Below are positions 12,661 to 42,765 of a stretch of 64,000 nt of DNA, piece by piece. The DNA is taken from the NCBI RefSeq assembly GCF_006088715.1, contig NZ_CP030771.1:4278001-4342000 (forward strand). Reading direction: 5' to 3'. Both the position numbers and the translations under genes were made by a program. The stretch's first letter is position 1; each line of letters begins with the position of its first letter. The notes under the pieces are model-generated. The model was not told the origin of the DNA and did not search any database. It worked only from the letters and a program-made list of their open reading frames with translations. The DNA is from Streptomyces sp. YIM 121038. GTDB taxonomy: Bacteria > Actinomycetota > Actinomycetes > Streptomycetales > Streptomycetaceae.

Positions 12661-12993
12661 CGACTGCGCGATGCGTGCTCGTGCACGGAGGAACCCCTCG
12701 GATGGATGGTGCTGGTGATTCCCTGCCTTCGCCAAGAGGAGTTCGTCCGCCCCCAGGACGAGCCCGGCCCCGGGAGCGGACTCCCCGGGATAGCCCGAGG
12801 CAGGACCGTGCTCCTGGCCGCCGTCGATCTCTAGGACCAGATTCGCCAGGATCCTCAACTGCCCTGCTTCCGGGCGCAGTCCCTCCCTGCAACCACGGTT
12901 CACCGTGTCACCTAAAGCATCACGAAAGGCGCACGGGCCGGGGTGAGTGCCGCGACCGCGGCACGGCATGCTCAGACCGCAAAGGAGCACGGC

Positions 12994-15725: not shown

Positions 15726-15769
15726 ACTCCTAAAGCGGGTGTCGCAGGTTCGAATCCTGCCGGGGGCAC
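15726..15769 (+). repeat. att direct repeat, tRNA-Arg(CCU) 3' fragment (element A/B junction)
   Basis: A 44-bp sequence identical to 42569-42612. It folds as the 3' part of a tRNA: the anticodon loop CTCCTAA (anticodon CCU), 3' anticodon stem AGCGG, T arm GCAGG-TTCGAAT-CCTGC and acceptor strand CGGGGGC plus AC. The 27-31 stem strand that should precede the anticodon loop (CCGCT-like) and the D arm are absent upstream, so it is a fragment and not a gene. It marks the right end of element A and the left end of element B. Confidence 0.9.
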
Positions 15770-15881
15770 AGAGAAACACCTGGTCAGAGGCCCTTTCGCC
15801 CGACGGACGGGAGGGCCTTCGTACTCGCAGCACACATATGGCACACATGCGGCTGCGGGCAGAGGTGGGGAGCTGTGCGAG

Positions 15882-16321: not shown

Positions 16322-17560
16322 TCACGCGGCATCGTCCTCCAGGGTGGCCACCGCCTCGGCGGCCTCACGGGCCTTCCGCTCCGCCTTCTCCAGCTTGGCC
16401 TTCGCCTTGGCCAGTTGCTTGGAGCGGCGCTTGTGCATCTTCTTCGAGACCTCGTCCAGGCGGTCCGGGAAGAGGTGCCCATACGTGTCCAGGGTCAGCG
16501 TCGCGGACTTGTGGCCCAGCATCGTCTGTACGACGTTGACGTCCGCACCGCTGGCGATGGCGAGCGAAGCTGCCGTGTGCCTCAGCTTGTGCGGGGTGAC
16601 CTTGAGATGCCCCAGCCCGGCCTTCACGACCGCCGGCGCGAAGAACCGCTGACGGAAGTTGCGTGCCCGTAGCGGTCCACCCTGCGGGGCCGTGAAGAGC
16701 AACTGCTCGTCTCCCCGTCCCCGGACGTGCGGCTTCAACTCCTCGGCCAGGAACCGCGGGATCGGTACCGACCGGCGCTCGTGGTTCTTGGGGGTGTCGA
16801 GGTAGAGCTTGCCGTTGTCCTCGGCGTACGCCTCCACGATGTGCGCCCGGCAGGCGTCCAAGTCGACGCGGCCCACCTTCAGCGCGGACGCCTCGCCCCA
16901 GCGCAGGCCGGTGTAGGCCAGCAGCAGGATGAACACGCGGTAAGCGCCTGACGCGTTGGCCAGTGCGTCGACCTGCATGTCGTCGAGGTACACGTGGTCA
17001 GCCGGCATCGCCTTGGGCAAGGGCACGCCGACAGCCGGGGTGGCCGCCAGACGACGGGCCTTGACGGCATAGTCGAGAACTCGGCTGAGGACGACGTACG
17101 CCTTGCGGACCGACCGGGGGCTGAGCTTCCTGCCGCCGGTCGCCTCGCCGGACAGCAGATCCGCGAGCCACTCGGCGATGTCCTCGAAGTGGATGCGGTC
17201 CAGTGGGGTGGTGCCCCACTTGGGGATCACGTGGACGTCGAGAACACCGCGGTACCGAGCCCGGGTTGAGCGCTTGAGGTGGAGCTGCGCCGCCAGCCAG
17301 GACTCCGCCACCTCGGCGAACTTCACCCGTGCGGCGGCCGGATCACGATAGGAGCCGTCGCTGAGACGCGACTCCATCCTCGTCCGCTCCGTCTCGGCGT
17401 CGACCTTGCGGGCGAAGGTCTTCATCTTGGGCTTGCCGTCGGGGCCGTACCAGCGCACGCGGTAGCGCCCCGGTGGCGTACGCCCGGCCCGCTTGGCTTC
17501 CGCCACGGCCTCTACGTACGCCGCGTGCCCTATGCGGTCCTCAATCCAGACCCGCGCCAA
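16322..17560 (-). CDS. int: Tyrosine recombinase, integrase of element B
   Basis: A 412-residue phage-type integrase that would recombine attP with the tRNA-Arg(CCU) site. The N-terminal arm-binding and core-binding domains (residues 30-175) precede the catalytic domain. The active-site set is visible: Arg220 in YTGLRWGEAS, HKLRH (His324, Arg327), His350 in MLGHKS and the nucleophile Tyr360 in LDTYGHLF. The start is TTG at 17560, directly adjoining the TAG of the upstream XRE gene, with GGAGGGGG about 8 bases upstream. The C-terminus is a Lys/Ala-rich helix. Its poor start codon may keep integrase levels low. Confidence 0.95.
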   Translation of the reverse strand: MARVWIEDRIGHAAYVEAVAEAKRAGRTPPGRYRVRWYGPDGKPKMKTFARKVDAETERTRMESRLSDGSYRDPAAARVKFAEVAESWLAAQLHLKRSTRARYRGVLDVHVIPKWGTTPLDRIHFEDIAEWLADLLSGEATGGRKLSPRSVRKAYVVLSRVLDYAVKARRLAATPAVGVPLPKAMPADHVYLDDMQVDALANASGAYRVFILLLAYTGLRWGEASALKVGRVDLDACRAHIVEAYAEDNGKLYLDTPKNHERRSVPIPRFLAEELKPHVRGRGDEQLLFTAPQGGPLRARNFRQRFFAPAVVKAGLGHLKVTPHKLRHTAASLAIASGADVNVVQTMLGHKSATLTLDTYGHLFPDRLDEVSKKMHKRRSKQLAKAKAKLEKAERKAREAAEAVATLEDDAA

Positions 17561-21060: not shown

Positions 21061-21724
21061 ATGCCAGCACCACAGCACGAACTGCCCACCACGCAACAGG
21101 AGATGACCACGACCACAGCAACCACCACCGCGTCAGCAAGGTATCCCGCTGGACCGTCCACAGGCCGGTCCCACGGGGAAGCCTCCGCCCCTGGGGTGGC
21201 GGAGGTACTCGGGCACCAGGGGGTGCCCGAGAAGGAGGAGCAGCCCGCCGACGCCGACCCCGCCGTGTCGCTGCCGCGCGCCCGCCGAAGCAGCTGCCCT
21301 GCACCGACTCGCCCAACGTCGTAAGCCCGACCCAGGCGGCCGTCGCAAGAAGCGCGTCGATGCCCGTTACAGCGTTGAGGAGAGGGACGCAATCCGTGCC
21401 AAGGCCACGTCGCTGAACCTCAGCGGCGCTCACTACGTCGCCGCCGTCACCCTGGCCCACGTTGAAGGTGACCTCGCTGTGCCCGGCCAACGCACCCAGC
21501 TGGACGACTACATCGACGAGCTGACCGCCCTGCGTCGCGAGGTCGCCGCCATCGGCCACAACATCAACCAGATCGCCAAGAAGCTCAACTCCGGCGGCCA
21601 TCCACACCCTGGGGACACCGCCGCCCTGGCCCAGGCCGAGCACACGCTGACCGCCGTCGGCGCCACGGTCCGCGACGTCGCGGCGGCCGCGAACCAGGCC
21701 GTCTCCAAGAAGGCGGCCCGATGA
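21061..21724 (+). pseudogene. MobC-like gene with frameshift (element B copy)
   Basis: Aligned with the intact copy at 1480-2127, the frame runs from ATG 21061 to SLPRAR. One extra C within 21281-21283 then shifts it to an early TAA at 21322-21324. The other frame continues the homology without further damage (KPDPGGRRKKRVDARYS, GAHYVAAVTLAHVEGD, AIGHNINQIAKKLNSGG) to the TGA that overlaps the relaxase ATG. It could be a real inactivation, a sequencing error in a GC run or, less likely, programmed frameshifting. Because the rest of the frame is intact, the lesion is recent or artefactual. Confidence 0.82.
21129..21205. other. Conserved DNA segment, candidate oriT region (element B)
   Basis: The counterpart of 1542-1618, with 5 differences in 77 bases. 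It contains GGACCGTCCACAGGCCGGTCC (a 6-bp inverted repeat, GGACCG/CGGTCC) and is followed by a perfect hairpin CGGGCACC-AGGG-GGTGCCCG at 21209-21228. It overlaps the 5' part of the mobC frame. Proposed as oriT by position and conservation only. Confidence 0.4.
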
Positions 21725-23445
21725 TCGCGAAGATCGGCGGCGGCAAGGACACCGCCGGCCTGATCCGCTACCTCTTCGACACCAAGAAAGCCAAGGACCA
21801 CACCGACCCGCACCTGGTGGCCTCCTGGGACGGCTTCGCCCCCGACCCCGGCCGCGCCAACGACTTCGACACCACGAAGAGACTCCTGGTGGCCGACCTC
21901 GACCTGCACGTCAAGCAGGCTCGGCGGCTCGGCCGCGCACCCGAGAAACACACCTGGCACTGCTCGATCCGGGCCGCCGAGACCGACCGCCACCTGAGCG
22001 ACGAGGAGTGGGCCGACATCGCCCGCCGCGTCGTTGCCGCCACCGGCATCGCACCCGACCGCGATCCGGACGGCTGCCGCTGGGTCGCCGTACGCCACGC
22101 ACCCGACCACATCCACATCGCCGCCACCAAAGTCCGCGGCGACCTGCGCACCGCACGCCACTGGAACGACTACCTCACCGCCGACCGCGAACTCGCAGCC
22201 ATCGAGAAGGAATACGGCCTCCACCAAGTCGTGCGCGGGGACCGCACCGCCGCCAAACGGCCCACCCGCGCCGAGCAGGAGAAGGCCCGCCGCCAAGGAC
22301 GCAAGACAACCTCACGCGAACAGCTGCGCACCACCGTCCGCCAGCTGGTGTCCATCGCCACCAGCCCGGAAGAGTTCCTCCGCCTCCTCGACAGTGTCGA
22401 CGGGGTCCGCGTCGACGTCCAGCACTTCCCCTCCGGGGACATACGCAGCTACAAGGTCGCCGTCGAAGGCGACACCAACGCCGCCAGCGAGCCGGTCTGG
22501 TTCTCCGGCTCCCATCTCGCCCCCGACCTGTCCTTCCCCAAAATCCGCGAGCGCCTCACCGGCATCGAACCCCCACCAGCCACCGAGCCGGGCAGCCGAC
22601 GCAAGCCGAACCTCTGGCACCAGGCCACCGCCGCGGCCGAACGCATCCCCCACCACCTCGACCACAGCGACGACACCGTCGCCCAGGCACACATCGCGGC
22701 CTTCGCCGAGGCCCTCGACATCCTGCCGCTGCTCGCCCCCGACCACCTGTTCCGGCAGCTCCAGCAGGCTGCCCTCGCGTTCGAACGCGCCTCCCGCTCC
22801 CGCATCCGGGACCAGCAGGACCAGGCCCGCGCCCTGCGCGGCGCCGTACGAGCGCTACGCACGACACCGGCCACCGGCGACGGGAGCGGGCTGGCGATGT
22901 TCCTCGACATCGCCGTCCTGGTCGTGATCGCCGCCACCCGCTGGCACCAGGCCCGCCACCATGACCAGCAGGTCGCCGCTGCCCAGCAGACCTTGGTCCA
23001 CCTCCAAGCGGCCTACGAGCAGGCAGCGGCTCAACCACTGTCCGCCCTGGCTCAGCGCAGGCCACCTGCCCGCGCCGTGAAACGCCACGCCCGGCACCTA
23101 CGAGCCGTCCTGCCCGACCACGCCGAGCAAGTCCTCGCAGACCCCGCCTGGCCGGCACTAGCCGCCACTCTCACCCAAGCCGAGATAGCAGGCCACGACC
23201 CCCAACAGCTCCTCCAGCACGCCGCCCGTCAGCGCTCACTGGACGACGCTCGCTCACCTGCCAGAACCCTGACCTGGCGCATCCAACGCCTCGGCACGAG
23301 GCCGGCACCCAGCGAGCAAGCGCGAGCCGCCCAAGCCGGCATGGCCGCGATCGGGCGACCGGGGCAGCCTGCTGCCTCTGCCAACCTTGCACCGAGCCTC
23401 GCCCACCAACCTGGCACGACAGCAGCACGTCGCCGACGCAGCTGA
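21721..23445 (+). CDS. MOBP-type relaxase (MobA/VirD2-like), element B
   Basis: A 574-residue relaxase. Likely catalytic Tyr17 is in IRYLFD, and the metal-binding triad is in VRHAPDHIHIAATK (His126, His130, His132). Nearly identical to the element A relaxase over the first 200 residues and clearly different in the helical C-terminal region (for example EFLRLLDSVDGVRVDV and a longer Pro/Ala-rich tail). The start overlaps the stop of the broken mobC frame (ATGA), so its translation may suffer if mobC translation ends early at 21324. Confidence 0.92.
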   Translation: MIAKIGGGKDTAGLIRYLFDTKKAKDHTDPHLVASWDGFAPDPGRANDFDTTKRLLVADLDLHVKQARRLGRAPEKHTWHCSIRAAETDRHLSDEEWADIARRVVAATGIAPDRDPDGCRWVAVRHAPDHIHIAATKVRGDLRTARHWNDYLTADRELAAIEKEYGLHQVVRGDRTAAKRPTRAEQEKARRQGRKTTSREQLRTTVRQLVSIATSPEEFLRLLDSVDGVRVDVQHFPSGDIRSYKVAVEGDTNAASEPVWFSGSHLAPDLSFPKIRERLTGIEPPPATEPGSRRKPNLWHQATAAAERIPHHLDHSDDTVAQAHIAAFAEALDILPLLAPDHLFRQLQQAALAFERASRSRIRDQQDQARALRGAVRALRTTPATGDGSGLAMFLDIAVLVVIAATRWHQARHHDQQVAAAQQTLVHLQAAYEQAAAQPLSALAQRRPPARAVKRHARHLRAVLPDHAEQVLADPAWPALAATLTQAEIAGHDPQQLLQHAARQRSLDDARSPARTLTWRIQRLGTRPAPSEQARAAQAGMAAIGRPGQPAASANLAPSLAHQPGTTAARRRRS

Positions 23446-29928: not shown

Positions 29929-31041
29929 TCAGCACACGTCGCCGTACCAGCCTTCGTCCCGGCTCAGATGTTGGTACCCCACCCATTCCTGTGCCAGCCG
30001 TCGCCCACTGACCAACAGGGACGTCGATACTGTGCAGTGGTCCGCAGGCAGCCAGTCGACCAGCTCTGCAGCCGTGGACATTTCAGCAGGGGGCTCTTTG
30101 CCCCGCCGTGGGACGCCCATGTCCAGCAGTGCTGTGTAGAGCCGTTCCGTGGGCCGGACCGGTGGAAGGTCCTGCTTACGCGCGATGTCCGCGGCCGCAG
30201 CCGGGATGCGGAGGCCGCTGAGGTCGAGATCGCCGAAGTACCGAACCTCGGCGATGTCTCGCTTCGCCGAGATGGTGTTGATGGAGGCACGGAAGGTGCC
30301 ACCGAGACCCCACGCCACGTACCCGAGCCGATGATTGTCGGGGAGGGTGTTGACGAGGGACCACCACGTGGTCACGTTCTCGACGACCAGCAGCACGTCC
30401 CCCGTACCGACGCGCTGGTAGTAACCGTCGCCCACCTTTTCGACGAAGTCCTCCGCCAGCAGTGGCGGATGGACCGTGAACGTGCGCAGAACTTCGTGGA
30501 GTCGATCGCGGTCCCCGAAGAGCGGGCCAGAACGGAGGGTGTCGAGGGTCTTCTCAGGCATGGGGAAGTCCTCCTCCGAGCCGAATCGGCCGAAGATCTC
30601 CAGAGCGCGTTCCCGTAGGGGTACGCGGAAAAGATCCGGACCGGAGAAGAACCATGCGTTGACGGCCAGGTAGGCAGCCCGTTGGCGATCAGTTGCGGTG
30701 CGCCACTCCTTCGCCAACCAGTACAGCTCGTGGTGCCAGATCGGCATCGGCGGCACCGGCCTGGGAGCGGCGTCGGGTAGGAGCCAGATGCCCACCGGCA
30801 GTGTCACTGTCTCGCGTGTGCGCTTCCGGAATTGCTCGATCTTGCCGTGTTCCTCTAGGGAGTCCAACTGCCGTGCGAGAACAAGGGGTTCGTATTCGTT
30901 CTCGGGATTCCGCAGGGGAACTCGCCGGAAGGCGGTCCACACCTCGTCCAGTCCGATACGGGTACGGCTGGTCTTACGGCCCTTCTTCCGCTTCGCCATG
31001 GCGGTGAGGAACCCCAGGAAGTCAATCTCTCGCTGCTTCAT
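29929..31041 (-). CDS. jetD: Wadjet nuclease subunit JetD
   Basis: About 370 residues. The N-terminal DUF3322 part leads to a C-terminal DUF2220 Toprim-like domain with VVENVTTW (Glu221) and VRYFGDLDLSGLRIP (Asp271, Asp273), the acidic residues expected to hold metal for DNA cleavage. JetD is the nuclease that cuts circular DNA trapped by the JetABC SMC complex. I chose ATG 31041, which has AAGGAG at 6 bases; ATG 31068 is possible and would give 379 residues. Either start overlaps the end of jetC, so they are coupled. It is last in the operon. Confidence 0.9.
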   Translation of the reverse strand: MKQREIDFLGFLTAMAKRKKGRKTSRTRIGLDEVWTAFRRVPLRNPENEYEPLVLARQLDSLEEHGKIEQFRKRTRETVTLPVGIWLLPDAAPRPVPPMPIWHHELYWLAKEWRTATDRQRAAYLAVNAWFFSGPDLFRVPLRERALEIFGRFGSEEDFPMPEKTLDTLRSGPLFGDRDRLHEVLRTFTVHPPLLAEDFVEKVGDGYYQRVGTGDVLLVVENVTTWWSLVNTLPDNHRLGYVAWGLGGTFRASINTISAKRDIAEVRYFGDLDLSGLRIPAAAADIARKQDLPPVRPTERLYTALLDMGVPRRGKEPPAEMSTAAELVDWLPADHCTVSTSLLVSGRRLAQEWVGYQHLSRDEGWYGDVC

Positions 31042-34000
31042 CAGCATCTCCTTCTCCGTCGGGGTCATGGCCGTCCTCGTCGGTGTCATTCCCATCCGAG
31101 GCACCCGAGTCCGCGCCGAGGTGCATGATCCGGGTCGCCGTGATCCTCCCTCCGCCATCCGGGGCGTCGAGGGCGTCGAGCTGCTCCTGGACGCGCTGGG
31201 CCACCGTCAGGTACTTCCGGCCGGTGCGCAGGTCCGCGTCGTTTCGGAGCCGAAGTACGAGCGGGAAGCGCTTGAGCGTGTTGTCGTCCGAAAGCCCTGT
31301 GGTGTAGATGAGCTGCACGCCGAGCGCCTCCGCCACCTTGCGCTGCAGGTCCAGCAGATAGTCGGCGTTGGCCCGGCCGATGGGGTTGTCGAGGAAAAGG
31401 ACACCAGAGTGGGTGTGCCGCACGTGCCCACGGTCATTGGCACGAAGTGCGGCCATGGTGCAGTAGAGCAAAATCGCCGCAGTGAGCACCTGGCCGCCGG
31501 AGAAGACATCCTTGATCTCCGACACCCGGACACGTTCGGTACGCAGAACCGCATCGGGCTTCAGCACCTCCACATGGAACCCGCGTGGGACGGCTGCCCG
31601 TACACCGCGGAGCAGCAGTGACATGCCGTCGCGCTTGACGGTACGGCCGTCGGTGTTCTGGCCGGCCGCTGCTTCGTCGATCACCTGCGCGAGTGCCTCC
31701 GTGAGGTGTACGTCGTCGGTGTGCCGGAAGCGGAAGCGGAGGAACTCCTCGCCCGACCAGTCGCCCAGGGTGTCGGGAAGACGTGAGACGCGTTGTGCCC
31801 GCCGGAGCGTGTTGAGGGCATTGCTGACGAGCCCGCGCAGGTTATCCACGATCAGCCGACGGTGGACTTCCGTCTGTTCTAGATCTTCGTCAAGCGACAG
31901 CAGACGCGGGTGCAGGGCCTCGGCCCATTCTCCCGCGCGAGCAGCGGTCGTCTGCCAGCCCGACACACGGATCTGGCTCTGCACTGGCAGGAGAAGATCC
32001 TTGAACTCTGCGGCGGTGGCATGCCTCTGCAACGCGCCTGCCCGCTCCTCAAGGGCCCTCTCATCGGCCTCACGGGTCGTCGCAGCGGATGTGACAGCCT
32101 TGCGCAGCACCGTATACGCGTACTGCGCCGACTCCGCATCACCCGAATACGGTTCTACGTCGACGGAGCCTGGAGCCGTTGCGTCGGCAGCATGCTCCGT
32201 GTCGCCTGCCACGGTTCCGGTGATGAATCGGAAGGAGCGCGCCGCCGTTTGCGCTTCCTCCAACCGCTGCTCAGCCTCTACATGCTCCTTCTCGCACTCA
32301 GCGTGTGCTTGAAGAGCGGCGGCGCTGCGTGCGGCGGCGTGTTCTGCGGCCGCGATGCACCGAGGGATGTCTGCGGGAGCCTCCGGCAGCAGCACCCGGC
32401 TGGTGGCCCGCTTCGTCGCCTCGTCGAACTGATCCCTGCACCTCGAACGGGCGACGACCGCGTTCTCCTTGGCCTTTTCCCGTAGCTTCACGAGACGTTC
32501 CGCGCTGTCCGTCTGGGCTGCGCGTGCGGATTCCTCGGAGCCTTGTGGGGTCTTCAGCAGCGCTGCGGCACGTACACGCACGCGCCCGTCCAAGGCCAGG
32601 TATGCAGCGTTCGCCCGGGCGGCCCGCCCCTCGGCGTCGCTCTTCTCCTTCAGGAGATCGCTGCCGACCTCCACCCGAGTGTAGTTCTGGACGGCTTGTG
32701 CATACGCACTGTCCAGCAGGGCGATGGACAGGTCGGGGACGGGGTCCGAGACCGGCACCTCCTCGCCGCCGGGCAGCTTGGCGCGCCGTTCGTTGAGCGA
32801 GCGAACGGTACGGCGGGCCTCGTCGGCGCTCCGTCCATGTTCGGAGACCTGCGTCTGGTGCTGTTCGGCAAGCTTCTCGGCTTCCTCAGCCTTCTTGTGG
32901 TGCGCCTCTGCCTGGGCCCGTGCGTTCTTCTCCTTCTCGGCCAACGCCGGGACACGACCCGTCTGCACGGACAGGTCGGCAAGCTGGCGCTCTTGCTTGT
33001 CTAGCTTCTTCTCCGCGCCGTACAACTCAGGCAGTTCCTTGCCGACCTCTCCCCTCCTGTTCTGGACCGCCTTAAGAGCGGTCTGGCAAGAAGTGACAAC
33101 GTCCAGGGCCTGGGCATGGAGACGCCGCGTATCCGCCCACTTTTGTTCCAGAGCCGCGAGCGATCCCACGGGATACGCTGCACGCCATTCCTCAACCCGG
33201 TGCAGGAGCCGTTGATCCGCTGTACGCCGAGCCTGCAGATCCATCAGTTCCGAGATGCGTTCGGCGTGGCGCAGCTTGATCTGCCGGTGCTCGGCGGCAG
33301 CCGCCTCCGGGTCGTGCAGTGCCGGGTGCAGCGGAATCGCGGTGGCCACACTCGCTATGGGATCGGCTCCGGCTTCGTCGAAGGCACGGGTCGTGGCGAC
33401 GGCGACATGAACTGTCGGCTGAGGACGCAGTTCGGTGAGCAGGTTTTCGGCCTTGGGAAGGTCAGCAGGGTCGTTCAGGATCACGCCAGCCGCGAGGTGA
33501 GGCGATCGCCGCACCCACGCACGCCGCCGCTCCAGGTCCGGAATGCCGGCCAGGTAATGCCATCCCGAAGTGGCGATGATGCCTGCGTCTTTGAGGAGTG
33601 CGCACGCGTCCCCGATCACCGCTGGAGGTGGCAGGAGTTCCCCGTCGGCCAGTGCCAGCCGCGCCCGCTCGTCAGCGTATTCAGCGGCGTTGAGGGCGGT
33701 AATGTCACGTTCTGCTGCTGAGAGCGTCTCACTCAGCCGCCTGCGCAACTCCTGCGCATCGCGGTCGAAGTCCGCCTGTTCGCTGTCTAGCAGTTCGAGC
33801 GTGCGGGGCTCGTTCTCCAGCTCCCTGGTCCGCCTGACGGCTTCCTCGTGGTCACTCGACGCCTTGTCGCGAGCCTGCTTGCGTTCCGCCGCTTCTTCCG
33901 CCGCCTCCCGCAGCTCGTCCTGAGTAGTGGCTTCCCGCTCGGTGAGTTCTTCTCGCTCCTTCTCCAGGTCGGCGATACGACTGCGCAGCTTCCCTAGCTC

Positions 34001-35554
34001 ATCCCGTACTTCACGAAGGCGGCTCGGCAGCGCCTCGGCCTCGGACAGCAGTCCTTTGGTGACTGCATCGCTGACGCGCGCCATCACCTCGGCAATGTCC
34101 TTGAGGCAACCATCGGCCGTGTTCTCCGCGACGACGGCGGTCTTGAGTTCGTCCCGCGCGGTCGCGCGGGCGGTGGCCAATTTCTCCTTGTGGAGGTCTC
34201 GCTGCTCAAGTTCCGTGGCCTCGACTGCGGCTGCCTCGTCGGAGCCCGCCAAGAGCGCACGCGCCAGACGACGTGCCGCGTCGTCCCGCTCCTTGAGCGC
34301 CGGCCGGGCCTTTTCCTCGGTCGCGACGACCAGAGCGGTGAGGTCCTTCACAGCTGCGGCACTGACGTCGTGTTCCAGAACCTTCGGTGTTGCCTCCCAT
34401 GCCTTCCGCTCCTTTTGGGCCTGTACGAGTTGCCTGTCACAGGTCTCCACGAGGGCATTGGCCTCGGAGAGCCGCATCTCAGCGAGGAGCCGGGAGAGTT
34501 CCGTCTGGATGTCCTCGCACTCCTTCTTGTGGCGCGCGGCCAGCGCCACTTCCTTGCGGGTGCGCTCGCTTTCCTTGCCGAGTACCTCCTGCTTGCCTTC
34601 CTCGACCTCGGCACGGGCACGTACCTGGGCGGCGAAGCGGGCGAGCGCCAGCTCCGCCTCCTTGTACGCGCGAACCGAATCCTTCAGCGCACGGCCCGCC
34701 GCATCAACCGGCCCCAGAAGATCGAGGGCTCCGGCCACGAACGTGCGCTCCGTGACCAGGGCGCCGCGATTGGCTAGCCGCTGCACATGGTCGTTCACCA
34801 GGGCCGCAAGAGGGTCCAGTTCCTTGGTACGGATCACAACACCCAGCAGGAACTCTACGAACTTGGCGTCGGAATCGAGCGTCAGAGCATTAGCTGCCTC
34901 GCCCTCGTCAACGTTCATGGCCCGCTGGTAGCGGAACAGCTCTGGGTCGATGTCGAGTTGCTGGAGCCGCTCCTTCCAGTCGCCTTGATGGGAAAACCAC
35001 GCCAGCTCAAGGCTCTGGTCCGCTGCGTAAGCCTCGTGCAGCTCTCGCTTGTACGGCGCCATGCGCAGGGGCTGGCCCTCGGCCTTGAAGGGCAGCACGT
35101 CCAGCGACATCCCGTCGTTGGGACGCAGGCAGTACCACTGCTGTTTGAGGGCGTCGATCGCGGCAGAGGCCGACTGCTGCCGCCACTCCATCACCTTGCC
35201 AGTCAGCAGCAGCTTCCCGGTGCTGACGTCCGTCCATTCGAGAACGATGTGCGAGACGTCTTTCGCAAGGACGAAGTTGTCGAGGACGCGCGTGTTCGTG
35301 GTGCCCAGAGTCTGCCGTCGGTCGGGGAGCAGAACGGAGAAGATCAGCTTCAGCAGCACTGACTTCCCGCCACCGTTCTCCAGGAGGATCACCGTGGCCG
35401 GCGAGGGCCGCAGCACGGGTGCAGCGTCACCGAAGACCGAGTCCTGGTGGTGCTCGACGGGGCGGCCGGCGCCGCGCAGGTCCAGCACGACATCGGGAAA
35501 TCGCGCGCCGGTAGGGCCTACGGACCGCAGCCGGACCCGGGAGAGTTCGTACAC
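31022..35554 (-). CDS. jetC: Wadjet SMC-like ATPase JetC
   Basis: A 1510-residue SMC/MukB-like protein. The N-terminal head has Walker A in VILLENGGGKSVLLKL (Lys64). Two very long charged coiled-coil arms (roughly residues 270-640 and 780-1200) surround a hinge region. The C-terminal head has the signature VFSGGQVLTAAILL (about 1350) and Walker B GVLFLDNPIGRAN (about 1385). The last 30 residues are an acidic tail. JetC is the loop-extruding motor that detects small circular DNA. It is larger than most JetC proteins I know of, mainly in the arms. GTG at 35554; 25 bases separate it from jetB. Confidence 0.93.
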   Translation of the reverse strand: MYELSRVRLRSVGPTGARFPDVVLDLRGAGRPVEHHQDSVFGDAAPVLRPSPATVILLENGGGKSVLLKLIFSVLLPDRRQTLGTTNTRVLDNFVLAKDVSHIVLEWTDVSTGKLLLTGKVMEWRQQSASAAIDALKQQWYCLRPNDGMSLDVLPFKAEGQPLRMAPYKRELHEAYAADQSLELAWFSHQGDWKERLQQLDIDPELFRYQRAMNVDEGEAANALTLDSDAKFVEFLLGVVIRTKELDPLAALVNDHVQRLANRGALVTERTFVAGALDLLGPVDAAGRALKDSVRAYKEAELALARFAAQVRARAEVEEGKQEVLGKESERTRKEVALAARHKKECEDIQTELSRLLAEMRLSEANALVETCDRQLVQAQKERKAWEATPKVLEHDVSAAAVKDLTALVVATEEKARPALKERDDAARRLARALLAGSDEAAAVEATELEQRDLHKEKLATARATARDELKTAVVAENTADGCLKDIAEVMARVSDAVTKGLLSEAEALPSRLREVRDELGKLRSRIADLEKEREELTEREATTQDELREAAEEAAERKQARDKASSDHEEAVRRTRELENEPRTLELLDSEQADFDRDAQELRRRLSETLSAAERDITALNAAEYADERARLALADGELLPPPAVIGDACALLKDAGIIATSGWHYLAGIPDLERRRAWVRRSPHLAAGVILNDPADLPKAENLLTELRPQPTVHVAVATTRAFDEAGADPIASVATAIPLHPALHDPEAAAAEHRQIKLRHAERISELMDLQARRTADQRLLHRVEEWRAAYPVGSLAALEQKWADTRRLHAQALDVVTSCQTALKAVQNRRGEVGKELPELYGAEKKLDKQERQLADLSVQTGRVPALAEKEKNARAQAEAHHKKAEEAEKLAEQHQTQVSEHGRSADEARRTVRSLNERRAKLPGGEEVPVSDPVPDLSIALLDSAYAQAVQNYTRVEVGSDLLKEKSDAEGRAARANAAYLALDGRVRVRAAALLKTPQGSEESARAAQTDSAERLVKLREKAKENAVVARSRCRDQFDEATKRATSRVLLPEAPADIPRCIAAAEHAAARSAAALQAHAECEKEHVEAEQRLEEAQTAARSFRFITGTVAGDTEHAADATAPGSVDVEPYSGDAESAQYAYTVLRKAVTSAATTREADERALEERAGALQRHATAAEFKDLLLPVQSQIRVSGWQTTAARAGEWAEALHPRLLSLDEDLEQTEVHRRLIVDNLRGLVSNALNTLRRAQRVSRLPDTLGDWSGEEFLRFRFRHTDDVHLTEALAQVIDEAAAGQNTDGRTVKRDGMSLLLRGVRAAVPRGFHVEVLKPDAVLRTERVRVSEIKDVFSGGQVLTAAILLYCTMAALRANDRGHVRHTHSGVLFLDNPIGRANADYLLDLQRKVAEALGVQLIYTTGLSDDNTLKRFPLVLRLRNDADLRTGRKYLTVAQRVQEQLDALDAPDGGGRITATRIMHLGADSGASDGNDTDEDGHDPDGEGDADEAARD

Positions 35555-35579: not shown

Positions 35580-36395
35580 TCAGTCGTCGTACAGCGTGGT
35601 CTCGTCCGTCACGCTCAACCCGCCTCGTTCCGCGGACAGGGGCGCCTTGAGATCGAGCAGCTCCTGGTAGGCACGGGTCGCCGCGAGTTCCCGTACGTGG
35701 AGCTGGTACCGGTGTGTGGACCGATACATCTGCTCCCGTCGCTCGGGATCAACCCCCATCGACTTGAGCATCCCGTAATCGCACAGGTAGGTGAGGGTGT
35801 TCGTGACTACCGTGCGCGTCGCCGCGTAACCGGCGCGACGCTTCTTAGTGGGGGCGACTTCGGGGCGGTTCCGATAGGCGTGCCAGGCACGTTCGAGTTC
35901 GGGCGCGTCGGCGGGCGGATCGTCGTCTTCTTCGGCTTCCGCCGCTCGTTCAGCGAGGGTGTCGCACACTGAGCGGACGTAGCGGTCCACCTCGGAAACC
36001 CATACGCGGCCGGTGCGGCCGTCGTCCACAAGATCCTCGGCTCGGGGAAAGCAGAGTGCGGCAACTGCCAGATGGGCGATGCCATGAAGGACACGCTCGG
36101 CCGTCCGTGGTTCGCGCACTCTTGCCTGTCGCACGAACTGGTCCATACGTGTCTCGAACACCGAGTTCGGCAGCGCCGTGTGCACGATGCCGGAACGCAT
36201 GGAGACACCGAGGACCCGAAGGCCCAGGCCGGCGGCCACTCGTTTCACGAGAAACCCGAAATCGGGATCTTCCTCGTATCGCCTGACCAACATTGCGTAG
36301 TCGTCGTCCCGGGACGGAAGGAGCTTGGCCCGAAAGCCATAGCCGACGAGCAGAGCGGCAGCCTCGGCGTCTTCGCCCGCCGTTTCGATGGTCAC
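35580..36395 (-). CDS. jetB: Wadjet MukE/MksE-like subunit JetB
   Basis: A 271-residue winged-helix (KITE) type protein. Recognisable features are DDDYAMLVRRYEEDPDFGFL near residue 30, RVLHGIAHLAVAALCFPRAE (about 105) and the C-terminal ATRTVVTNTLTYLCDYGML winged-helix core. It bridges JetA and the JetC heads. The start codon is GTG and overlaps the jetA stop as GTGA (36392-36395). Assignment rests on position between jetA and jetC and on MksE-like size and fold rather than on strong motifs. Confidence 0.85.
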   Translation of the reverse strand: MTIETAGEDAEAAALLVGYGFRAKLLPSRDDDYAMLVRRYEEDPDFGFLVKRVAAGLGLRVLGVSMRSGIVHTALPNSVFETRMDQFVRQARVREPRTAERVLHGIAHLAVAALCFPRAEDLVDDGRTGRVWVSEVDRYVRSVCDTLAERAAEAEEDDDPPADAPELERAWHAYRNRPEVAPTKKRRAGYAATRTVVTNTLTYLCDYGMLKSMGVDPERREQMYRSTHRYQLHVRELAATRAYQELLDLKAPLSAERGGLSVTDETTLYDD

Positions 36396-37894
36396 CGGTT
36401 TAGATTCCTTTCCTCTGCGTCCTCCACTCTCCTGACACTTGCGGGCCGGTCGAGCCTTGCCGTGGACAGCAATAGGTCGTCACCGGAAAAGCCGTGTTCC
36501 TCAAAAATGGAACTGGCCGACACCGCAATAAGCAACCGGTCTTGGTCGTTGCGCAGCGCGGATCCCAGCTGAGGGCTGAATGCCCGCAGGGCCGCCAGCA
36601 CGATCAATTCCGGCAGATCGTCGTCCAGAAGCGCCGCCTCGGCCAGTACGTCCGAGAGAGTGCGCGCAGAGTCCGGTATGTCCAGCAGTTCGCGCGCCAA
36701 GTGCTGCTGCTCCGCACTGAATCGGACCTCGTCCTCGGGAGCCAGCGGTCCCGGAACGTCCTCCTCCTCAGCAAAACGGCTGTACACGGGCGGTGGCGCA
36801 AGGAGCGTGGGGACCAGTGCCGCCAGGTTGACCTGATCCTGACGTTCAGGACCCACGGCACCCTCCACAAACGCCTCCAGGGAAGCGGCAGCCTCTCCGA
36901 CTGTCAGAGCGAGGGAGGGGTGCAACAGATCGCTGTGCAGATCCAGCAAAGCCCGCCGAGGCGTTCCGGAGAACTGCTGTCGGTCTTGCTGGGTGCGGAA
37001 GAGCGCGCGCGCCCCCAACAATCGGTGCTGCAGCACCGTGTGTCGGCGAATGCAGTCTCCGACGATATGGACCAACTCGGCAGCCCGCCGCTTGGTGCGG
37101 AAGTCCTGCGCAGAATCACGATTGCTCAGGATTGATCGTTCGATCGCCTGCTCCTCATGGATGCGCGACTCCACATGGGTCAACGCCTCGTTGAGGACAT
37201 CGGGCACTTCCTGCATCCAATCGACTGTCCGGATGTTCCGCTCAGTGGCGTCAAGGTGTCGACGGATGGTTTCGCCGTACTGAATCGTGCGCACTCTGGC
37301 CTGCTCGGCAACATGCCGGGCGTCCGCCAATCGGCCTCGGTCGATCAGGTTGCGCAGCCGCACCTCGGCAGCGATCTGAGCGGATTCCACGTCGGTGTCG
37401 AGAGCGCCCACGAGAACGTTAAGGGCCTCGTGAGAGGCGAGGAGGTACAGATCACCTTGAGCGTCGGTACGCTCTTCGAGGATTCGAAAACCGAAGTCCT
37501 TGAACTCATACGCCCCCGAGGAATTTATCGACCCGTATTTCCAGCGGAATGCACGGTCGGATTCCCGGACGTTGATGAGACTCTCCAGCACCCAGGCGGC
37601 AACCCTGCCGTGCTCGCCACCAGGGCGGTCCGGTGCCTGCCGTGCAACAAAGCGTTGCGCTCGTTCCAACACGTGCTCGTGACGTGCCCCCGACTCGAAA
37701 TCCATGGCGATGGCGACCTGATCAATGATGAACAGCGCCACCTCTGCCGTCTGGTAGCGCTCGCCCTCCATCCAAGGCTGATTCGCCTTGCGAACCTCAA
37801 GATCGTGCAACGGTGCGGTACACGCCAGAGCCTTCATCCGGCGGGACAACCCCTCGTCCACCCACCCGTCTTGCACTCCCTCCCCATAAGACAT
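36392..37894 (-). CDS. jetA: Wadjet kleisin-like subunit JetA
   Basis: A 500-residue MukF/MksF-like kleisin. The N-terminal winged helix (residues 1-110: ALFIIDQVAIAMDFESGAR) is followed by a DUF3375-like helical middle (EERTDAQGDLYLLASHEALN, then LRNLIDRGRLADARHVAEQA). The C-terminal domain contacts the SMC head. The ATG at 37894 is chosen because the family sequence begins there. A -10-like TACGGT seven bases upstream would make the mRNA leaderless. It is first in the jetABCD operon, with GTGA coupling to jetB. Confidence 0.87.
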   Translation of the reverse strand: MSYGEGVQDGWVDEGLSRRMKALACTAPLHDLEVRKANQPWMEGERYQTAEVALFIIDQVAIAMDFESGARHEHVLERAQRFVARQAPDRPGGEHGRVAAWVLESLINVRESDRAFRWKYGSINSSGAYEFKDFGFRILEERTDAQGDLYLLASHEALNVLVGALDTDVESAQIAAEVRLRNLIDRGRLADARHVAEQARVRTIQYGETIRRHLDATERNIRTVDWMQEVPDVLNEALTHVESRIHEEQAIERSILSNRDSAQDFRTKRRAAELVHIVGDCIRRHTVLQHRLLGARALFRTQQDRQQFSGTPRRALLDLHSDLLHPSLALTVGEAAASLEAFVEGAVGPERQDQVNLAALVPTLLAPPPVYSRFAEEEDVPGPLAPEDEVRFSAEQQHLARELLDIPDSARTLSDVLAEAALLDDDLPELIVLAALRAFSPQLGSALRNDQDRLLIAVSASSIFEEHGFSGDDLLLSTARLDRPASVRRVEDAEERNLNR

Positions 37895-38353
37895 GCGCAG
37901 AACCGTAGCTTCTTCCAAACCCCCTGCCTCATCGACACATTTACGATCATGGCGGGTTTTCGACAGTGAGGCAGTCTGCATGTACGCAACAAGTGACCTT
38001 CGTTCACCATTACCGCAGGAAGAGCTCTTTTCGGAATCACGTCGTCCGGAAATTTCAGCATGCGCCGTTTGATAGATCGACCGAAAAGGGCCGATTTTGG
38101 AGTCCGGCGTTCAGCAGTCCCTACGAGCTCCCGTCATCGCCTACGTGAACCCGGTCGCTTATTCGGCGGCGTCTACTCGGCGGGGCCAACTGCGATGGGG
38201 CTGAAGGAGTCCAGGCCTACTTACCCTGCTGATCGGTGTCGGTGGCGAGGGGCCAGGGCATACATCACGTTCACCACAGGTCAGCCACGCCCACCACCCT
38301 GCTCATTTTGAAAGGTCTAGGCGAAATCCGAATACGCTCGGTCCCGACCGACG
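37895..38353. other. Intergenic region upstream of the Wadjet operon
   Basis: A 459-base gap between jetA and the stop of the ADP-ribosylglycohydrolase gene. It is A+T-rich for this genome at 37930-38110. It should contain the jetA promoter (minus strand) and the end of the helicase/DarT/hydrolase transcript. No convincing ORF, RNA gene or strong hairpin was found. Confidence 0.5.
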
Positions 38354-40102
38354 TCACCCGGCAGGCGGTTCAGCGTTGTTGACAGCGACGATCAAGTACG
38401 GGTCAACCCGAACCCAGAATGCACTGCCGTCCCGTTGAACCGCGCCCTCCAACTCCATGGCGCGCAAGCTCTCCCATGCCGCTTGGACGTCGCGGATGGC
38501 AATACGGAGCTGGGTCGTCGGAAATCCTGCGGTCCATTCCCCTGCGGGGGCTTGTCTGATGACGAGATTCTCGTAAGAGACCCAGTCGTTCCCGCGGCGT
38601 GGTGCGGTCAGCCCCAGAGCGGTAAGGGCCTCGGTCACGCGGCTGATGTCGACCACGGGCAAGTAGGCGCCTTGGAGTCGGGTTTGGGTCGGCTGCCGGA
38701 CCGGTCGATGCTCGGCTCCCTGTGCTGTCTCAGTGCGCGAGGATTCTTGGACGCGTTCTGCTTCAATCCGCTGGACCCCGCGGATGAGGAAGAGGCTCTG
38801 ACCGTCCTCAGTGAGCAACTGAGTTCGTCGCGCTGACCAGTTGCCAGACGTAAGGGTGGACCCGGCGACGACACGGGCCTGGCGGCGATCCGGCAACAGG
38901 AGACCTACTCGTGTGTCGGCTCCGTCGAGTTCCTGAAGAAACCGTGACCTAGCCTCGCTGACCTCATCGTTCGAGGGCGGGGGCAGTGTCACGGAGACGG
39001 CATGGAGCAGCTTCTCGGCCAGCGTGATCAGCAGGGCCCCGTCCTGCACAGTACGGCCGAACGAGCCGAGCCATTCCTGACCCAGACCCGCTCCGAGCAG
39101 ACTGGCGGTCATGGACGCCAGGGTGTCCGTGTCCGCGCCTTCCTGACGGGCCGGAACACCGATGCCACGCTCAGGGCTAGCTGCGGACCGTGCCGCGAGG
39201 TAGATGGCGGCCACCGCGCACAGGGTCCCCGAGCCACGGGTCCTCGTGCGGGTCAGCCCGTGCTCCTCAAGAAAGGCTGAGGGTGCACTGAGCGCACCGC
39301 TGTCCAACGAGGACCGCGCGCTACTGAGGAGGTCTTCCACCTCCTGCACAGTGTCGTCCCAGGCACGCTCGTAGTCGCCCGGGAACGCCTCGGAGGCGGC
39401 ATCGCGCCAGTGGTGATCCAAGACCTGCCAGACCTGTTCCCGCCAGTCCTTCAGCCCGTCCAGGGTCGCTTCGACGAGCCAGCCGTAAGCCAGCGGGGCG
39501 GGTTGTCGCAAACTGATCCACAGCGCGTATGCATGCACCAGGGCGCCCAAGAGAGCACGCGGGTGCCCGTGGGTCGTGGCCGCGTCGCGGACCACATCAG
39601 CGGCTAGGTCGCCGAAGGAGCCCTCGTAGTGAACGATGACGTGTGGCGCGATGCGCATTGCCGCACCATTGGCCCCGGCGCTGAAGTACTTCTCCAGGTC
39701 GTCGCTCTTGTGGCCCCAGGCTGCTTCGTGCTTCTCCCAGGCACGGCAGGCGCGTTTGACGCTGGCACCGGCGCCGCGTTCGTAGTGAGGGAGGAAAGGC
39801 CACTCGACTCGTTGCAGCCAGGTGAGCCAGTCGTCGCCCGCGCTGAGGCGAGCGCGAGCGACAGCGATAAGCATCTGGGTGTCGTCGCTGTACTCGCCGG
39901 GTCCGATCTCCTCAAGGATCGGACGGAACCGGCTGCCGGCCATCCGCTGCCAGGCGAAAAATCGACCCGAGACCTGGCTGAGTGGCGGAAGTGAGCGGGT
40001 CCGGTCCCGCCGCTCGTAGGGCCAGCCCATGGCGTCCCCGACAGCTGCCCCGAGGAGCATGCCGCAGGCCCTGTCGGTCCATGGGTGAAGCTCAGCGTTC
40101 AC
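38354..40102 (-). CDS. ADP-ribosylglycohydrolase (DraG family) with extra C-terminal domain
   Basis: A 582-residue protein. The hydrolase domain (1-390) has the family's metal sites: GAAVGDAMG (17-25), GEYSDDTQM (Asp73, Asp74, Thr75), GANGAAMRIAP (143-153) and GADTDTLASM (322-331). It would remove ADP-ribose from protein or nucleic acid. Residues 400-582 are an added domain of unknown type ending WVRVDPYLIVAVNN. GTG start 4 bases after the DarT-like gene stop. By position it is the natural antagonist of that enzyme, taking the place of the macrodomain protein DarG in classical DarTG pairs. That pairing is inferred. Confidence 0.88.
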   Translation of the reverse strand: MNAELHPWTDRACGMLLGAAVGDAMGWPYERRDRTRSLPPLSQVSGRFFAWQRMAGSRFRPILEEIGPGEYSDDTQMLIAVARARLSAGDDWLTWLQRVEWPFLPHYERGAGASVKRACRAWEKHEAAWGHKSDDLEKYFSAGANGAAMRIAPHVIVHYEGSFGDLAADVVRDAATTHGHPRALLGALVHAYALWISLRQPAPLAYGWLVEATLDGLKDWREQVWQVLDHHWRDAASEAFPGDYERAWDDTVQEVEDLLSSARSSLDSGALSAPSAFLEEHGLTRTRTRGSGTLCAVAAIYLAARSAASPERGIGVPARQEGADTDTLASMTASLLGAGLGQEWLGSFGRTVQDGALLITLAEKLLHAVSVTLPPPSNDEVSEARSRFLQELDGADTRVGLLLPDRRQARVVAGSTLTSGNWSARRTQLLTEDGQSLFLIRGVQRIEAERVQESSRTETAQGAEHRPVRQPTQTRLQGAYLPVVDISRVTEALTALGLTAPRRGNDWVSYENLVIRQAPAGEWTAGFPTTQLRIAIRDVQAAWESLRAMELEGAVQRDGSAFWVRVDPYLIVAVNNAEPPAG

Positions 40103-40106
40103 GTGT

Positions 40107-40805
40107 TCACTCTGCCAGAGTTGTTCCGGGGATGTACGGGGTCTCCAGTGGTCGTTTACCGGAGCGCACCGACCTACTCAGGGCGTACTTCTCGAAGAGC
40201 ACGGGAGCAACGACCAAGGGTGGCAGCAGAGCCGCCATACCGAACCGGGCGTGCCTGAAGTGCTCCAGCTCCGCCTGCTGCTCGTCTCGAACGATGACAG
40301 AGCGCACGGCGGGCAGGGGGATGGCGCCGGGTATTTGGATCTCTGCCTGATCGTCCGTGGGCCACCAGGACGGATGCCCGCGTTCTCGCCGCAGAGTCAT
40401 CTTGCCGGTCACCGTCGGCGCGAACATAGCGTTGAAGCCGTCGGCGCCGGTCCGGGCGCCGGCGCTCCTGTCCCGTGCGGAGTTGTATGCGCAGAACCGG
40501 GCGCCGGGAGCGGCGAGCAAGTCGACGTTCAGTGTGAGGACCACCCAGTCCTGGAAATGGCGGTCCCGGCTCGCGGCCTGCGCCAGGTACCAGGTATTCG
40601 GATACTCCACGCTCAGGAAGGTGAACTCCGGTGCGCCGTCCAAGCGCTGTGTGTCGACAGGCCGGTAAGCGTCGGCGGCCGTCTGCAGCACGGCTACGGG
40701 ACGTATCTGCCGGGTGTCGAGAATGTGGGACAGGTTGGCCGACTTAGTGAAGTGGCACAGACGGGTAATTCCGCGGTCCCGGGCCTGCTCAAGGACGTCG
40801 TTCAC
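40107..40805 (-). CDS. DarT-like ADP-ribosyltransferase (DUF4433 type)
   Basis: A 232-residue protein with the DarT layout. It has ITRLCHFTKSANLSHILDTR at the N-terminus (NAD-binding, His18), EYPNTWYLAQAASR, FCAYNSARDRS, and the catalytic-glutamate segment TDDQAEIQIPGAIPL (Glu155), followed by VRSVIVRDEQQ. DarT enzymes attach ADP-ribose to thymidine or guanosine in single-stranded DNA and are toxic. This copy is divergent: the usual YFNPRSPM stretch is not recognisable, so its target could differ. The GTG overlaps the helicase stop (GTGA, 40802-40805), and the hydrolase gene follows after 4 bases. Confidence 0.78.
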   Translation of the reverse strand: MNDVLEQARDRGITRLCHFTKSANLSHILDTRQIRPVAVLQTAADAYRPVDTQRLDGAPEFTFLSVEYPNTWYLAQAASRDRHFQDWVVLTLNVDLLAAPGARFCAYNSARDRSAGARTGADGFNAMFAPTVTGKMTLRRERGHPSWWPTDDQAEIQIPGAIPLPAVRSVIVRDEQQAELEHFRHARFGMAALLPPLVVAPVLFEKYALSRSVRSGKRPLETPYIPGTTLAE

Positions 40806-42202
40806 AAGCTCACCCGCACATACAGGTCGGACATCTCGTGTGGCAACAGATCGGTGAGCTTGCTTGAGTGCAGCATGATGAGCTCCGTACGAGCCCGGGT
40901 GATAGCCACATACAACCGGCGGGCCTCGCGGGCCTGCGCCTCCTCCAGGCCGTGAGCCCCCACCTCACTTGGCTTCGGCAGCTCGTCCGCATCGCAGAAC
41001 GGGAGGATGACCGAGTCGAACTCGAAGCCCTTCGCCGCGGAGTAGGTCCCGTAGAACACTCCAGGCTCGTCGGTCCAGCAAGCAAGATCGCGGTGCAGAC
41101 GGCGAATGGGGACGCGGCCTCGGTCGAGGAGAGACCTGAGTTTGCCCTCGTGATCCCGCGTGCGCATGAGGATGGCGACCTGGCGGTCCGCGCCCAGCGC
41201 CAGGGCATTGCGCGCCGCCTGAACGAACTGCTCATCCTTGCTTGCGGTCTCCAAGATGGTGGGCTTCGGGCCGTCGGCAGCCGACCCGGTCGGCTGAACC
41301 AGATCAACGTCGTCCTTGAAGTGCTGCATATCCGATATGCCCTGGGCGAGTTGCCCAACCTGACGACTGTTGCGATAGTTGTGGGCGAACTCCACCACAT
41401 TTGCTACATGGAGGCCCAGGGAGCGCCAGGACATCCGGCTTCCGTAGATTTGCTGCGCGTAGTCCCCAAAGAAAGTTAGCGAACCGTCGCCGGGAATGGC
41501 AGCTGCCAGGCTTCGGATCATCTCAGGCGTGAAGTCCTGACCTTCATCGACGACGACATGCCGGTAGAGCCGCTTGGTCGCGTCAACCTTGAGGGCGGCC
41601 AGGACAGTCGACGCCATGTTGTCGAAGTCGTACTCGAACCCCGCTTCTGCACGCAACTGTGCGTAGCGTTGGTAGACCTCGAAGACGACTTCACGGTCGG
41701 GTTGCTGAAGTGGCTTACCCCGGCCAACTCGGCGCGTGCGGCTTTCCACGTACGTCTGCTGGTCGACGATGCCGTGCCCGACCATCCAATGCAATTCGTC
41801 TAGGAAGAAATCGAGCGGGCGGTGAATCACTGCCCGGGAGGAGTGACGCTCGCGGGCCTCCAACAGTGCCCGCTCGACCATCTGCTTCTTGGACTTGCAT
41901 ATGCGCACCGGCGCTTTCGTCCAGTGTGCGAGGTAGCCGCGCGCGAAGGTGTGGTAGGTCTCAATCTGCAGGTTCGGGGGCGCAGTACTCATACCCCGGA
42001 GGTAGGTAACGAGAGCCTTGTTGAAGGTGACCAACAGGGTGTGGCCTCCGATACCGGGAGCCATGGCCAGATAGTGAGCCCGATGGACCGCCATCGTCGT
42101 CTTGCCGCTGCCCGCCGTACCCAGAACGACGCAGTGACCGCGGTCGTTCAGGAAGACGACATCCCGCTGGTGACCCTTCGGTTCAGGTAACGAAAGCCCC
42201 AT
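40802..42202 (-). CDS. UvrD/Rep-like superfamily 1 helicase
   Basis: A 466-residue SF1 helicase, shorter than UvrD (about 720). Walker A GTAGSGKTT (28-36), motif Ia LLVTFNKALVTYL, Walker B VVDEGQDF (217-224), motif III FFGDYAQQIY, motif IV/V region GVFYGTYSAAKGFEFDSVIL and motif VI RRLYVAITRARTEL (about 440). The accessory 1B/2B domains appear reduced. It would unwind or translocate on DNA and may expose single strands for the coupled DarT-like enzyme. ATG 42202 begins the three-gene operon. The promoter should lie in the 366 bases before attR. Confidence 0.87.
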   Translation of the reverse strand: MGLSLPEPKGHQRDVVFLNDRGHCVVLGTAGSGKTTMAVHRAHYLAMAPGIGGHTLLVTFNKALVTYLRGMSTAPPNLQIETYHTFARGYLAHWTKAPVRICKSKKQMVERALLEARERHSSRAVIHRPLDFFLDELHWMVGHGIVDQQTYVESRTRRVGRGKPLQQPDREVVFEVYQRYAQLRAEAGFEYDFDNMASTVLAALKVDATKRLYRHVVVDEGQDFTPEMIRSLAAAIPGDGSLTFFGDYAQQIYGSRMSWRSLGLHVANVVEFAHNYRNSRQVGQLAQGISDMQHFKDDVDLVQPTGSAADGPKPTILETASKDEQFVQAARNALALGADRQVAILMRTRDHEGKLRSLLDRGRVPIRRLHRDLACWTDEPGVFYGTYSAAKGFEFDSVILPFCDADELPKPSEVGAHGLEEAQAREARRLYVAITRARTELIMLHSSKLTDLLPHEMSDLYVRVSL

Positions 42203-42568: not shown

Positions 42569-42612
42569 ACTCCTAAAGCGGGTGTCGCAGGTTCGAATCC
42601 TGCCGGGGGCAC
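42569..42612 (+). repeat. attR direct repeat, tRNA-Arg(CCU) 3' fragment
   Basis: Identical over 44 bases to 15726-15769: anticodon loop with CCU, T arm and acceptor strand. The preceding bases (GGGAAAA) do not complete the anticodon stem, so it is the 3' tRNA fragment displaced by integration. It marks the right boundary of the accessory DNA. Beyond it the sequence is ordinary chromosome. Confidence 0.9.
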
Positions 42613-42765
42613 GGACGGCATCCGCCTGGGGTGTCCTCGCGCAAGGGCTCGTGACCTGTTCGGTCGCGGGCCCTTGTGCGTACCGGGGCCCGGTGGGCGT
42701 CCGGGTGGGGCGTGGGGCGCCAGGGGCTGTTGCGCGTGATCCGTCGGGCGGGGTGGGATGGGTGT

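Follow-up and report, generated by a model that had tools for sequence, protein, structure and literature searches.

DarTG systems are divided into macrodomain-linked and NADAR-linked types. Here, we describe an uncharacterised, real and conserved third arrangement of DarT systems, found in a 64,000-nucleotide stretch of Streptomyces sp. YIM 121038 (contig NZ_CP030771.1, positions 4,278,001 to 4,342,000; the window hereafter, from whose first letter positions are counted). In this triad, a helicase gene is followed by genes for a DarT-like ADP-ribosyltransferase (ART) and for an ADP-ribosylhydrolase of the ARH family that carries a VOC-fold domain.

The triad shares with DarTG2 (DarT2-DarG) a transferase of the Pfam DarT family and the logic of a transferase paired with a hydrolase. 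It differs in that the antitoxin of DarTG2 is the macrodomain protein DarG, whereas the triad has no Macro match. The likeness to DarTG1 (DarT1-NADAR) comprises a place on the same side of the DarT tree, the same fold, equivalents of R52, D54, N104 and E152, and an operon with a hydrolase. In contrast to DarTG1, the hydrolase is an ARH-VOC fusion and not a NADAR, the operon begins with a helicase gene, and the window protein lacks the guanine-contacting K74/Y75 as well as M71. Tre1/Tri1 (PDB 6dre) is an interbacterial effector system with a protein target. As far as the material on 6dre and 8za7 goes, Tre1/Tri1 and a Listeria ART-ARH pair resemble the triad in combining an ART toxin with an ARH-fold immunity protein. 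Neither pair is known to have a helicase, and their toxins belong to another ART family.

Among the matches listed in open-licence PubMed Central (PMC) full texts, there was no description of a helicase-DarT-ARH triad. De Souza and Aravind reportedly predicted in 2012 that DarT-like ARTs are coupled to ADP-ribosylglycohydrolases. We know of no fixed helicase partner or VOC fusion in that work, though they may be there. A passage of PMC11543638 cites it for the occurrence of DarT alongside various hydrolases in operons. An apparent "DarTG3" in PMC10884400 proved to be DarTG followed by citation number 37, and no third class. In M. tuberculosis, darTG and the helicase gene dnaB are transcribed together, according to a passage of PMC12170906.

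A conserved helicase-DarT-ARH operon

The triad is composed of the following features, with match values from Pfam:

40802..42202, minus strand: DNA helicase, SF1A (UvrD-type), first gene of the operon, 466 aa (UvrD-helicase 1.6e-15, UvrD_C 3.8e-13)
40802..40805, minus strand: 4-base overlap of helicase stop and darT start, from open reading frame (ORF) coordinates
40107..40805, minus strand: DarT1-like ADP-ribosyltransferase, 232 aa (DarT PF14487, 2.1e-11)
38354..40102, minus strand: ARH-family ADP-ribosylhydrolase with C-terminal VOC-fold domain, 582 aa (ADP_ribosyl_GH PF03747, 3.1e-35)

All three genes lie head to tail on the minus strand from 42202 to 38354, with a 4-base gap between DarT and ARH. 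This layout had been described by an earlier interpretation made from the letters of the window (the sequence-only reading), and its coordinates, overlap and gap are correct by the ORF coordinates. The helicase, DarT-like protein and DraG-type hydrolase it named each have a Pfam match to their family. Its proposal that a hydrolase of another fold stands in the macrodomain's place also holds: the ARH family was found, and Pfam gave no Macro or NADAR match in any of the three proteins. The 4-base overlap is present in 13 of 18 loci, window included, when starts are taken from the longest ORFs, and may provide translational coupling of helicase and darT. The DarT gene is single-copy in the host genome (E 0.01). 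Among the best 25 of 42 matches in PADLOC-DB 2.0.0, the triad corresponded to no single catalogued anti-phage system: the ARH had no family, the DarT matched weakly (7.4e-4), and helicase matches were scattered over C3a187, GajB and RT-helicase models.

Linkage of the three genes, claimed from the window alone, is conserved far above chance. Order and strand were the same in all 18 loci of the detailed comparison, which include several near relatives. Over these loci, the distance matrices of the triad proteins correlated with r 0.95-0.96, a value not reached in any of 2000 permutations. A scan of genome contigs gave ten loci (seven Streptomyces, Saccharibacillus, Paenibacillus and a Clostridiales metagenome-assembled genome), all ordered helicase-DarT-ARH. 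A profile of the DarT clade matched in 6/295 Streptomyces genomes, in 3/396 genomes of the Streptomyces phylum (two already in the Streptomyces sample) and in 3/295 Paenibacillus-family genomes (two already in the genome scan), and in every case both partners were present. They flank DarT even at 26-28% helicase identity. The reciprocal search with an ARH profile at E 1e-30 returned the identical six genomes and loci (6/291), and at E 1e-20 its four plasmid matches were all DarT-linked ones. Chance adjacency is ruled out by the order kept down to that helicase identity together with the reciprocal search. The operon is thus confirmed as real and conserved.

The triad spans at least three phyla (one with Streptomyces and Rhodococcus, one with Paenibacillus, and the Pseudomonadota, covered here by the Shinella plasmid) and also occurs on one 28-kb viral contig. 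Phage records gave no match, and plasmid records gave no near one. With a related DarT (P0103), seven of 72,556 plasmid records matched, three of them triads (Shinella L029, Streptomyces L030, Rhodococcus L031). A fourth, in Nostoc (L034, 1284-8047), is a DarT-ARH pair with an AAA_11/AAA_12 helicase, located between BREX pglX and pglZ, which indicates that helicases of differing kinds accompany DarT-ARH. The others were a Novosphingobium fragment and two Acinetobacter DarTs, each ahead of a 234-aa hypothetical protein that is presumably a NADAR.

As control samples show, the arrangement is confined to one part of the DarT family. In 299 genomes of the Paenibacillus phylum, Pfam DarT marked 16 loci, 11 of them macrodomain-partnered; the remaining five comprised two with DarT1-associated NADAR, two with ARH (L077, with helicase, and L071) and one with an unassigned partner (L064). 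Seven of 150 Streptomyces genomes had a Pfam DarT, in six triads and one macrodomain-linked locus, making the triad the main DarT arrangement in this sample. Two other DarT loci have features of their own. At L070 (3125-8810), a DarT domain ends an 805-aa protein and is followed by a NADAR of the DarT1 type and a UvrD helicase of 849 aa, so that this locus reads as a NADAR-linked DarT system with its own helicase. At L066 (4052-7317), the gene immediately after a macrodomain-linked DarT encodes a JetD_C domain and is thus like JetD of Wadjet.

Kinship and domains of the three proteins

The transferase scores 44.4 bits against a curated Pfam cut-off of 22.5 (PF14487). Its R54, D56, N108 and E155 correspond to DarT1 R52, D54, N104 and E152, and are kept in 18/18, 16/18, 18/18 and 18/18 loci; the mapping relies on sequence alignment to the crystallised DarT1 (an E152A protein) and on published text. 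The fold is of the DarT1 type. The sole PDB sequence match is a DNA-modifying DarT, as are the top eight Foldseek matches, with a KptA/Tpt1-type fold (7yw4) coming next after the DarTs in structural similarity. A tree was drawn from the 31 DarTs gathered, leaving out L064 (partner unassigned) and L065 (short). Sequence, fold and tree together group the transferase with the guanine-modifying, NADAR-linked DarT1, not with classical macrodomain-linked DarT2, and a DarT2/thymine type as nearest kin is ruled out by the same three lines. The Tyr of the DarT2 H-Y-E motif (Y71) is not present, its place being taken by Ser65, the equivalent of DarT1 S63. The comparison with classical DarTG made by the sequence-only reading was right about the DarT family, and its emphasis on Glu155, which is kept along with the other catalytic residues, was well placed, but macrodomain-linked DarT2 was the wrong reference. 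Since the transferase sides with DarT1, the relevant comparison is DarT1-NADAR.

A C-terminal segment at about residues 200-222 (within 40107-40805) is conserved in the clade, with P201 and E221 invariant and F204 and G216 nearly so. It is a possible contact for partner proteins. Three divergent triads (L023, L024 and L025) form a separate branch, their DarTs being 26-32% identical to that of the window; in two of these DarTs, the position of DarT1 M71 is still Met.

The hydrolase belongs to the ARH/DraG family by fold and metal-site motif, and its fold matches include the ART-ARH toxin/immunity pairs 6dre and 8za7. The extra domain noticed earlier does exist, but it is larger than the 180 residues proposed: about 210 residues, in which a disordered linker (452-476) separates a beta domain (about 400-445) from a domain of VOC fold (about 474-580).

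The helicase has the UvrD domains and ATPase motifs of SF1A. G31/G33/K34/T35, D219-E220-x-Q222-D223, Q250, R277-N278, K391-G392 and R436 are kept in at least 94% of the 18 loci. Pfam found no nuclease or NERD domain. Identity with a known GajB or NERD helicase was rejected, the similarity being generic to SF1, and no solved structure resembles the protein by sequence at E 1e-8 or better.

The carrying element and its neighbours

The triad and an adjoining Wadjet III system look like cargo at the right end of a putative element bounded by direct repeats:

15726..15772, no strand: left direct repeat, att-like (3' part of tRNA-Arg), 47 nt, 98% identical to 42569-42615
42569..42615, no strand: right direct repeat, att-like, 47-nt partner of the left one
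16322..17560, minus strand: tyrosine integrase of the carrying element (Phage_integrase 4.5e-22)
21721..23445, plus strand: relaxase of the carrying element (PF03432, 3.7e-8)
29929..31158, minus strand: JetD of the neighbouring Wadjet III (PADLOC JetD3 1.6e-118)
31022..35554, minus strand: JetC of the neighbouring Wadjet III (PADLOC JetC3, E = 0)
36392..37981, minus strand: JetA of Wadjet III, a separate neighbouring system (PADLOC JetA3 2.7e-181)

A 34-nt stretch of the repeat exactly matches an intact tRNA-Arg(CCT) gene 3.9 kb left of the window (L078, 15497-15570). Because the repeats match a tRNA and enclose an integrase, a DUF3631 protein and a relaxase, 15726-42615 (26.9 kb) looks like a mobile element integrated in the tRNA-Arg(CCT) gene, with mobility predicted. 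These same features support the earlier statement that the triad lies on mobile DNA. Third-position GC is 0.76-0.80 in the triad genes and 0.91-0.93 in the next three ORFs beyond the right repeat. A related element stands in tandem at the left (repeats D1-D9, relaxase 2124-3761). It includes adjacent genes for beta-lactamase-fold (PF00144) proteins (12943-14184 and 14365-15489) whose DNA is partly alike (repeat D10).

The Wadjet III cluster is directly downstream of the triad, beyond a 372-base gap. A 271-aa ORF at the JetB position, between JetA and JetC, had no PADLOC match. At E 1e-3, there was no Jet homologue among the called ORFs of 24 fetched DarT-ARH loci (duplicates included), in agreement with tblastn, and Wadjet was accordingly rejected as a triad component. 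The adjacency to Wadjet that the sequence-only reading took as support for a defence role is therefore genuine for JetA, JetC and JetD, but peculiar to the window when set against these loci. Individual loci have other neighbours: an LmuB-family gene beside L075 (LmuA appeared in the pooled flank scan only), a QatC-like gene near L029, multiubiquitin/ThiF/Abi genes near L031 and BREX genes at L034.

Proposed mechanism and alternatives

We favour, with a probability of roughly 0.55, a module of helicase-coupled, reversible nucleic-acid ADP-ribosylation that works like DarTG. The DarT1-like enzyme would transfer ADP-ribose from NAD+ to bases of single-stranded nucleic acid, the likeliest target being the exocyclic N2 of guanine in single-stranded DNA (ssDNA), and the ARH-VOC protein would act as an enzymatic antitoxin that strips it off. 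The helicase, produced from the same message, would expose or track the ssDNA substrate, and could thereby couple modification to replication or to invading DNA. If the balance were upset, for example by phage replication, modification would win and replication would halt. The simpler scheme proposed from the window, in which the helicase opens foreign DNA, the transferase marks single strands and the hydrolase protects the host, is plausible. By analogy, a defence role can reasonably be inferred from the kinship to DarTG.

Published work established that DarT1 modifies guanine N2 in ssDNA and that NADAR reverses the modification. DarT1, like DarT2, showed no activity on double-stranded DNA, and a helicase expressed together with it would thus have an evident role. 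According to a passage of PMC7050489, DraG and ARH1 remove ADP-ribose from arginine; because guanine N2 is in a guanidine-like group, ARH action on the guanine adduct would be chemically reasonable.

Several observations weigh against this mechanism. The guanine-reading K74/Y75 of DarT1 are Q76/A77 in the window and variable among loci, and M71, which is required for DarT1 toxicity, is Y73 (Tyr 14, Met 2 and Phe 2 among the 18 loci). The modified base may therefore differ from guanine. In the part of PMC11833690 bearing on guanosine-ADP-ribosylated RNA, neither the ARH-like SCO5809 of S. coelicolor nor a human hydrolase panel that included ARH members showed activity, NADARs being the sole active hydrolases of the RNA panel. 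A DarT1-like enzyme paired with an ARH thus implies either a new ARH activity or another target. In addition, L071 is a DarT-ARH pair with no recognisable helicase in the 9.5 kb examined. Finally, defence genes were not enriched in the flanks by a count of families: flanks yielded 40 PADLOC families (98 genes of at least 200 aa, 12 loci) and control regions 45 (118 genes, 12 regions) at E 1e-25, a comparison based on rough gene calls, with several controls from plasmid regions and one of 13 locus/control pairs (L006/L080) left out.

The loss of guanine-contacting residues would also suit a protein-directed switch of the DraT-DraG or Tre1-Tri1 kind. The DarT-like enzyme would then act on a protein, perhaps its helicase partner or else a protein of a phage or of replication, and the ARH would undo the modification. 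The ARH family classically acts on protein ADP-ribose, in the sources as far as consulted, the 6dre and 8za7 pairs are among the fold matches, and a strictly linked helicase could be the substrate. However, the transferase fold and the base-coordinating Asn (N108, DarT1 N104, in 18/18 loci) are of the DNA-modifying type, as are the only PDB sequence match and the leading Foldseek matches, and we consider a protein target unlikely. It is improbable that the triad mainly stabilises mobile elements, with defence secondary or absent. Its toxin-antitoxin anatomy and its position at one end of the putative tRNA-Arg element and on plasmids fit such addiction, but simple addiction would not need the conserved helicase, and defence systems border or enclose some of the copies (Wadjet III, the LmuB-family and QatC-like genes, BREX). 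Least probable is modification of RNA bases or phosphate ends, with the ARH reversing the RNA adduct, a reading that draws on an ARH-like Streptomyces enzyme reversing phosphate-end RNA ADP-ribosylation (in part of PMC11833690) and on the nearness of the KptA/Tpt1-type fold behind the DarTs.

Recurrence of the triad in the same order in unrelated bacteria indicates a candidate third DarTG-like kind. That it is a third DarTG class proper, a helicase-guided DNA ADP-ribosylation immunity in which ARH-VOC erases base-linked ADP-ribose, is a tentative proposal. To our knowledge, no ARH-family enzyme has been found to reverse base ADP-ribosylation. If the proposal is true and the base is guanine, this hydrolase would be the first, with chemistry like arginine de-ADP-ribosylation, and the triad would be a DarT system whose dedicated helicase provides ssDNA or senses it. 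The strict linkage of a DarT1-like enzyme to an ARH-VOC protein and a helicase leads one to expect either a previously unseen action of an ARH on nucleic-acid bases or a DarT target not met before. Three genes and published assays suffice to test both possibilities, and the helicase link that recurs among DarT systems also becomes open to experiment.

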